Part shown: in pieces, positions 54,901-57,900 of the stretch
Layout: every line of letters begins with the position of its first letter
How positions within the stretch are numbered: position 1 is the first letter of the stretch
Assembly: GCA_963678705.1 (NCBI GenBank)
Contig: OY783217.1
Coordinates: forward strand, 5,766,001 to 5,830,000
Length of the DNA: 64,000 nucleotides
Direction of reading: 5' to 3'
Origin: Panorpa germanica
Taxonomy: Eukaryota; Arthropoda; Insecta; Mecoptera; Panorpidae
The notes under the pieces: model-generated
Databases searched by the model: none
What the model was told of the DNA's origin: nothing
What the model saw: only the letters and a program-made list of their open reading frames with translations
Made by a program: the position numbers and the translations under genes

Positions 54901-57900
54901 TTACGTAACATTTACGAACAAGTTACATGTAAACGTATTTGCTACATAAAATAAATGCTATATTAACAGTTACAGAATATGGTACTTACAATGATATAAA
55001 CCGATTTTCCTGTCCCAGTTGGTCCCACTACCATCATAGCTTTGTTATGTGTCACTAACAACTTTAGTATAGCCAAAGTTCTGATGGTTTCGGTGGTTGC
55101 TACTAGGACTTGATTGACAGGCATATCTTTTGGAATAGGAGGAGCAGTCAATAAATCATCCGCCCATTTAATCCATTTTCCTTTACCCTAAAAAAACTTA
55201 TATAATAATTACTGTAGAAAATGAAGCGAATCTTTCTTCATCAAACTTACATCCTTAACATATCTGTAATCGAACACAGTGTTCTCTTTTGGTATAAGCA
55301 CTACATACATCTTAGCTGGATCTGATATCTCAACTGTTTCTGATAAACCTAAAGTTGTCTTCAATTCCTGCGGGAAGGTTTTTGCTAGAAGTCCTCTGTA
55401 TAACATATTAAACTTCTCTCTACTATTTGAATCCAAAATTCCTCCCATGCCCCAGATGGAAGAAAAGAAAAAGACACCCTAAGATATAACATTAATAATT
55501 TTAATGGGCTCGTATCCTCATCATTTAGTGGTCGATTTTTCAATTGTTGATTGAAATTGATGTTAATAAATGTGTATTGGCGTGTCTATTTTGTTAAATG
55601 TCTAAATGTTGACGGAGATATAGCAATTAAAAGTTTGAATTGTAGTTTCTGCGCTAAAAATGGTCGGCCATTAGGTCGGAGTAGGTCTTACTATGGTAAT
55701 GTTTTGTAGCTATTGGTAGTCGAAATAATCATAAATAATAAACAAATTCATGACAGATTGTTACCGTACAAGAAACTTGTAGACAATTGTGCTGATTTCA
55801 TGGACAAATATGAAATGTGGATGAGTGCTCAAGTAAATTATTTCCCTACAAACAATTTGAATATATCTCTTTTATGCTCTGTTGTATAAAAGAGATAGTA
55901 ACTAGCGGTTGTGAGGTCACATGCATTTGGAATATTGTACAACGTTAAATCCATTTAATAATTAACGAGACAAAATGACTTTTTTAATTGTTAATATCTC
56001 CTAACATATAAGGAACTATTAAAAATTAATGGAACACTTGATGTTCTAGTAACCCACTTTATCAATATATAGTACACTTTTATAGAAATTAAGACATAGG
56101 ACACAAGCCCATTGAGTAATTAAAACTTAGAAAATATGAAATTCTTACTTCTAGTTGTGCTCGCATGTCGAGTTCACTCATAGTTTCTACATATTTATCA
56201 ATATACAGAGTGTCCAAAAAACAATCAAATAAGTACATTGTGGACCGTACTAAGTTTGAATCCAAACAGGGTGACATTTGCTACAAGAAAGAATTAATAG
56301 TTAGTTTTTGTTTTTCAAAAAGAATTTACATGAAAGATAAACTTACTCTTAAACCTCCTCTTTTTATAAGAAACAGTAAGGGTTTACAAAATCTTGCAAA
56401 AATGCCAGTTAGCATAACCTTATTGACGTCATGGATAGCAGGAGGAAGCGTATTGAGCCAAGATTTTAGTAAGGGTTTCCACCCCAAAGCGCCAGGTTCC
56501 ATATAAATCATTCCACATCGGGATACCTGTCACAATATATAACTGTTCAACTTATAACTAATATAAATAAATATTCCATTAGTTGATCATACGTACAGTA
56601 GCTGGTGACGCGACTTCCAAATCCATTGGCTCAAAGATCAAATTTGTTGTTGGCGCCAACTGAATAATCTCTCCAGACATTAAACAAAGCTTCTTGTTGT
56701 CATCTAGCACGGTGTTCATATTTTCAATCCAGATAGCGTCCACTGGACCATCAAACATTAACCATTTTCTGTAATCATATAAATTTAAACTAGAGTTTAC
56801 CTAGTCTTTTATGTGTGAATGGAATTTCATTTCAAATTTTAATTCCATTTTTAAATTGAAATATTTAACTCGTTCTATATTAATTTTACATATAACAACA
56901 AATAATTTTTCATATAAACTGACTAAAAAAATGTATTTATTAATATAAAATATTTTCAAATTATTCGTTATTTGACCAACTTTTTTTCAATATTTGGGAA
57001 TTTTTTTTTTCGATTTGTAAATTAGGTACCAAAGTTAGCCCATATACATAATTTCATCTTTCTAGCACAACTTTTACTCTCGGCACAAACTGATTTCGTG
57101 CCCCCAAATAAAGTTTTTGAGTTTTGAATTTTTTTATTTTAATATGATATTCAATTACTACACAATCCAAAATTGGAGCTTTCTCGAATGTTTCCTACTG
57201 GGTCCCCTAATTTTCTCAGTGCCCCTTTTATAAAATTTGGAATTTCTAAATATTGAAATATTTTTGCATTAAATAGAGTACTTTTAGGGCCGGTTTTATG
57301 GTCTTTTATTTACTTCGGGGTTACGAAACCCCGAGTTAGCTTAGTTCGGTACTTATTTTTGTATCGGGTTTTATGGTCTAAATTTAATCCCGAGTTAGTT
57401 AGTAGAGACGTAAACCATATTTTAAGAAATTCGAATATTTGTTTACAGTTGTAAATCCATGGGAATGCAAGATTCAGTTTAATTATTGTTTTAAAAATGA
57501 CGGATTTCTCAACTTAGTACTATATTTGTATAATAGCTGATCTTCCTCATCATCTGTTATTGATAATTGATTAAGGTCACTCACAAAATTCATAATAAAC
57601 AATAATTTAATATTATAACCTAAAATATTATTATAATGATAGCTAAACTGGCTGAGATAGCATGATATTTTATCTCTGTTCCACACTTACTCCGGGTTAA
57701 ATATTATTACCTTGATTTATGACGGGATATTTTACTCCGTGATTTTAGTTCCGAGTTAGCGTTAACCCTTGATGATAAAACTCATTTTTCGTTTAATTCG
57801 GGAGTTAGCTATTTAGTTCGGTAGTAAGACGAACCATAAAACCGGGCCTTAGAGTAACTTTCTATCTTTTACGAATTAAAAGTTATAGGCCAAACCGTAA

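Follow-up and report, generated by a model that had tools for sequence, protein, structure and literature searches.

A dynein exon end with its splice donor captured antisense by a MITE in an intron of the same insect gene

How did the end of a dynein exon, together with its splice donor, come to lie inside a MITE, antisense in an intron of the very gene that holds the exon, and does the arrangement have any consequence for that gene? The locus is in the window, by which we mean the whole 64,000-nucleotide stretch of DNA that was analysed (bases 5766001-5830000 of contig 14, in a genome of 464 Mb). The window, together with 30 kb of DNA beyond its right edge, contains 3 tandem paralogs on the minus strand, genes A, B, and C, whose products resemble insect dynein axonemal heavy chain 7 by sequence matching, with the best dynein matches of the array coming mostly from beetles. 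Dynein is the motor of cilia and sperm tails. An intron of gene A also houses a BEL/Pao LTR retrotransposon at 26542-33266, about 150 bp past that gene's paralog of the exon discussed here. Its 329-nt LTRs (26542-26870 and 32938-33266) are identical and it has a single open frame of 1752 codons (27448-32703), which together indicate a very recent insertion; among 120 listed matches, the named Pao matches are all from Lepidoptera except one from a firefly. The features are collected in Table 1.

Table 1. Features of the dynein array and of MITE copy 5, in window coordinates, continued rightward for features beyond the window.
Feature	Position	Strand	Remarks
Gene A	about 39.8-1.2 kb	-	
Gene B	about 71.8-41.8 kb	-	coordinates extended rightward beyond window
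Gene C	about 93.4-73.8 kb	-	coordinates extended rightward beyond window
Full-length MITE copies in window	4121-4726, 6866-7525, 22325-22948, 45869-46507, 55505-56111, 58541-59063		
MITE copy 5 (TGGGCTCGTATCC ... GGACACAAGCCCA)	55505..56111	+	607 bp; AA left, TT right; no target site duplication
Gene B intron with copy 5	55479..56148	-	670 nt; 63 nt minus the element
Second repair scar of copy 5	55670..55682 (approximate)	+	42 nt of consensus missing; filler TAGGTCG
Filler TAAATAA	55732..55738	+	7 nt, joins captured piece to left MITE half
Captured piece	55739..55859	+	gene B exon, 94 nt, then adjoining intron, 27 nt; antisense relative to that gene
Open frame of 31 codons, dynein heavy chain tail	55740..55832	+	inside captured piece
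Copied splice donor GTAAAT	55833..55838	+	
Source of captured piece	66012-65892, window-extended (L031:2012-1892)	-	end of a gene B exon with its 5' splice site, immediately right of window
Gene A paralog of captured exon end and donor	33414..33517	-	84/104 identical to insert

The MITE belongs to a large family. Two first-look searches of the genome gave 4940 and 6287 candidates (about 5000-6300), totals that are unconfirmed as copy numbers, 40 candidates having been scored per search. The 94 kb dynein array has 11 full-length copies, 6 of them inside the window, and there are partial copies in the array as well, e.g. at 51108 and 59498-59810. An AA on the left and a TT on the right flank 45 of the 53 full-length copies with clean ends. 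Among 59 flank pairs compared with shuffled pairs there was no general excess of shared flanks, although 5 shared bases at offset 1 were found in 2/59 copies (0.16 expected) and 3 shared bases at offset 2 in 2/59 (0.9 expected); hence the family appears to make no general target site duplication. Spy transposons, in the sections of PMC4482050 used here, also make no target site duplication and insert between A and T with AAATTT preferred. The MITE family is like Spy in lacking the duplication and in its AA and TT neighbors, the likeness being one of flanks alone, but it does not share the preference for AAATTT beyond the AATT core, since the outer bases are not favored (AAA in 9/53 and TTT in 10/53 copies).

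Copy 5 occupies an intron whose homolog in gene A is about 94 nt long and has no MITE. Against a 701-nt majority consensus, built from 20 sequences of which copy 5 is one (L001) and 19 are independent, copy 5 is missing 185 nt between positions 263 and 449. The missing stretch is 26% of the consensus, and both capture breakpoints are internal, at 0.38 and 0.64 of its length. An earlier note on this DNA had described a MITE with terminal inverted repeats and a private insert, containing 31 open codons that stop exactly at an exon boundary and are followed by GTAAAT, and it forecast a source in gene B just right of the window. These descriptions hold. The insert is missing in the 5 other full copies of the window, the codons end directly before the donor, and the source is present at the forecast place, matching at 120/121 over the full piece (118/119 in a first alignment). 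The exon part of 94 nt has 0 mismatches, and the intron part of 27 nt has one (C for T at 55849). With E = 1e-57 in the 30 kb and E = 1.8e-53 genome-wide, a dynein match at chance level is excluded.

The source exon spans about 66101 to 65919, with its donor starting at 65918, and lies about 10 kb from the insert, in the opposite orientation and in the same gene, so that the placing of the copy antisense in a downstream intron of its own gene B was also correct. The extent of 55732-55857 given for the copy was right as to exon and donor, and needs adjusting at both edges: 55732-55738 are filler unlike the source, and 55858-55859 belong to the copied piece too. As the exon end is also found in gene A and gene C (a 73% match over 98 columns for the latter), the ancestral form is that of the exon, and what the MITE holds is a copy of it. 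As the piece spans an exon-intron junction, its template was either DNA or unspliced RNA. An assembly artefact that produced this structure is hardly credible, given the intact MITE halves on both sides, the filler, the inverted orientation, and the private mismatch.

When the genome was searched with the insert, 3 candidates came back, namely the insert itself, its gene B source, and the gene A paralog of that exon, the gene C exon being below the first-look cut of that search. The best parent is unique, with the source at 99% and gene A next at 81%. The insert is present in none of the 29 other MITE loci that were fetched first, and when 71 full-length copies were compared with each other (72 before one over-long chain, L039, was left out; copy 5 is among the 71), it was in copy 5 alone. 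Private stretches of at least 30 nt are found in 3/71 copies, namely copy 5 (124 nt), L019 (46 nt), and L030 (43 nt), when scored strictly; a looser blastn aligned straight through the copy 5 insert, and global alignment to the consensus likewise forces the insert against it. As the copies come from similarity-ranked searches, 1/71 is no unbiased rate. Ten more copies, the ten best of 39 non-self matches chosen by the left end only, have no private interior stretch of at least 25 nt except one of 34 nt in L072; in these ten, far-end runs were counted as flanking DNA, and the right end was unmatched by pattern in 3/10. The chimera is single-copy in the assembly; the earlier note had named the same insert in most copies as the finding that would count against it, and instead copy 5 stands alone among 71, with 3 places in the genome.

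The 46-nt interior of L019 was considered as a second capture and rejected, as it is the interior of a subfamily. A 41-mer from it has 58 genome matches (27 + 31, self included) with up to 3 mismatches, and at 7/7 other loci fetched the same interior lies between ends of the same MITE family. This subfamily with a different interior is represented by L019:2509-2964 and L078-L085. The 43-nt private stretch of L030 consists of short CTATTCAATTATTCTT-like repeats within the MITE copy L030:171-753.

The junctions carry information on how the piece was acquired. At the left one, the filler plus a neighboring base repeats an adjacent AAATAAT, a match attained by 0.3% of shuffles of the neighboring 31 nt, in a test that was picked after the match was noticed. 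The filler also occurs within the interior of a neighboring MITE copy, which 17% of shuffles equal. The right junction has 0-1 nt of microhomology. Both junctions resemble products of error-prone joining in which a template was used. The second scar in the same copy 5, whose repeated filler adjoins a TAGGTC in that copy, is a further point in favor of repair.

Copy 5, in our view, is probably a single-copy Pack-TIR that formed where it now lies, by break repair with a template switch to nearby DNA. We infer a break, a switch, and an order of events with capture after insertion. The MITE would have inserted first into the short gene B intron, and a double-strand break or stalled fork would later have arisen within the resident element. 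In the repair, 185 nt of MITE interior would have been lost and a short filler made, whereupon the repair polymerase would have changed template to a stretch of gene B lying about 10 kb upstream and copied 121 nt over the exon end and donor, and joining of the copied piece to the remaining MITE half would have used 0-1 nt of microhomology. A possible guide for the switch is the MITE copy at about 66222-66867, which at 210 nt is the nearest MITE to the source, and whose orientation would fit strand invasion followed by forward slippage; MITEs are dense locally.

A different course of events is mobile capture, in which the exon piece would have been gained before or during transposition, in the manner of Pack-MULEs or of the FoSTeST process of PMC8277862, with insertion here only afterward. 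The family has close copies, with left ends 94-98% alike, and so may have been active recently. The relative ages of the parts bear on this. The MITE part of copy 5 has 24/424 differences from the family majority while the insert has 1/121 from its source (Fisher p = 0.014), but with stricter contrasts, using the 11 differences shared with no more than one further copy or the 7 that are fully private, p = 0.21 and p = 0.44, respectively, values compatible with mobile capture. Capture after MITE insertion is likely, with age alone no proof of it, and more weight falls on the nearness to the source and the single copy than on the age contrast as evidence for capture in place. Those same 2 properties stand against mobile capture, since the chimera is single-copy genome-wide and its source lies in gene B itself, at a distance (about 10 kb) for which the sections of PMC8277862 used here have no multicopy moved cases. 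We judge mobile capture unlikely. What the earlier note had called capture of a gene piece by a MITE stands for the exon end with its donor; Pack-MULE-like capture, in which an element would take up a gene piece and move on with it, is not supported, given a single copy with its source about 10 kb away.

Abortive gap repair linked to a transposase is known for P and Ds elements. In such a scenario, excision of the MITE would have left the break, and interrupted repair from the sister copy would have been patched, giving the same product from another cause of breakage. The large internal deletion of 185 nt agrees with it, and the gap of 26%, far above the 4.6% median in the sections of PMC8277862 drawn on, is a point against break repair in a resident element and nearer to repair linked to excision. 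Both breakpoints are internal, however, and such breakpoints are read there as breaks inside the element. Abortive gap repair and break repair in place are inseparable from sequence alone, and we regard the former as quite improbable, keeping in-place repair as our explanation.

As for consequences, the 2 gene B arms could, by computation, form 121 bp of duplex (-204.5 kcal/mol) that takes in the 5' splice site and the end of the exon. A putative cis action would have the pre-mRNA fold back and hide the exon's 5' splice site in that duplex (120/121 paired), leading to an additional splice form, a substrate for editing, or a nascent source of hairpin small RNA against the dynein heavy chain, and for this we see scarcely any chance. 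The arms are 10 kb apart, and because about 18 exon-like open pieces intervene, splicing would usually separate them early. Gene B's 30 kb also has 18 other inverted-repeat pairs (E <= 1e-10), each longer than 121 nt, of which the 8 strongest, those for which the energy was computed, range from -225.8 to -503.4 kcal/mol; among them, the insert stands out only by its cover of an exon end and its 99% identity. The hairpin or antisense effect that had been predicted would be weak on this anatomy and is unlikely, and the intronic insert probably does nothing.

To place copy 5 among known chimeras, the closest reference is the survey of Tan et al. 2021 (PMC8277862), whose sections used here cover 100 animal genomes and count 370 Pack-TIRs, nearly all of them single-copy, at a rate of about two per 10,000 TIR elements; the present family, for comparison, has about 5000-6300 first-look candidates. 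Of the 281 unique ones, 56.9% have their parent no more than 15 kb away; microhomology (median 2 bp) is found in 67.6%, at one breakpoint or at both. The single-copy Pack-TIRs are attributed to transposition-independent gap filling, and antisense transcripts over parental genes were already noted. Five of the 6 points of the Pack-TIR definition that we examined from those sections hold for copy 5. The two flanks extend into the outermost 10 bp of a single TIR element; the internal non-element sequence is 7 + 121 nt (limits >100 bp and <5000 bp); the parent matches at 120/121 (at least 90% called for), by BLAST and not by BLAT as in the survey, with 128 nt versus 121 (ratio 80-120%); the best parent is unique, at 99% versus 81%; and the piece is no retrocopy, as it includes 27 nt of intron. 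The sixth, that no transposable element lies within 100 bp of the parent, is partly covered: the upstream 208 nt are single-copy genome-wide, the downstream 112 nt are unmatched among the sequences compared, and the nearest MITE is 210 nt away.

Copy 5 is like those single-copy animal Pack-TIRs in being a TIR element with unique parent DNA in its interior and the parent near, in its single copy, its little or no microhomology, and its internal breakpoints. It differs from those described there in the insect host, in a gap of 26% versus a median of 4.6%, in holding an exon end and donor antisense in its own gene, and in an element without target site duplication. The capture is real, clean, single-copy, and recent-looking. 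It supplies a clean insect case of gene-fragment capture in a small DNA transposon for which source, junctions, and family consensus are all known, it favors local break repair over transposition as the way in which such chimeras arise, and it shows a gene's exon end and donor duplicated antisense into an intron of that gene.

The statement in the earlier note that such capture is rarely described in insects agrees with those sections of PMC8277862, which have no Pack-TIRs in bird or insect reference genomes and one polymorphic family in fly populations; in the open-licence literature searched, we found no insect MITE that holds the end of an exon and its donor as an antisense copy within the gene of origin. 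That fly family, Ssk-FB4 of Drosophila melanogaster populations, is like copy 5 an insect TIR element with a gene piece, and its breakpoints, one with 2-bp microhomology and the other with inserted bases, are similar; but it is multicopy, has moved, and has signs of coding function, whereas copy 5 is single-copy and non-coding in its context. Plant Pack-MULEs, too, are TIR elements with gene fragments, and copy 5 differs from them in that there is no sign of movement of the chimera and the target site is not Mutator-like. The chimera is most likely a DNA-repair patch, a type of structure known from other animals, and what it adds is an insect host.
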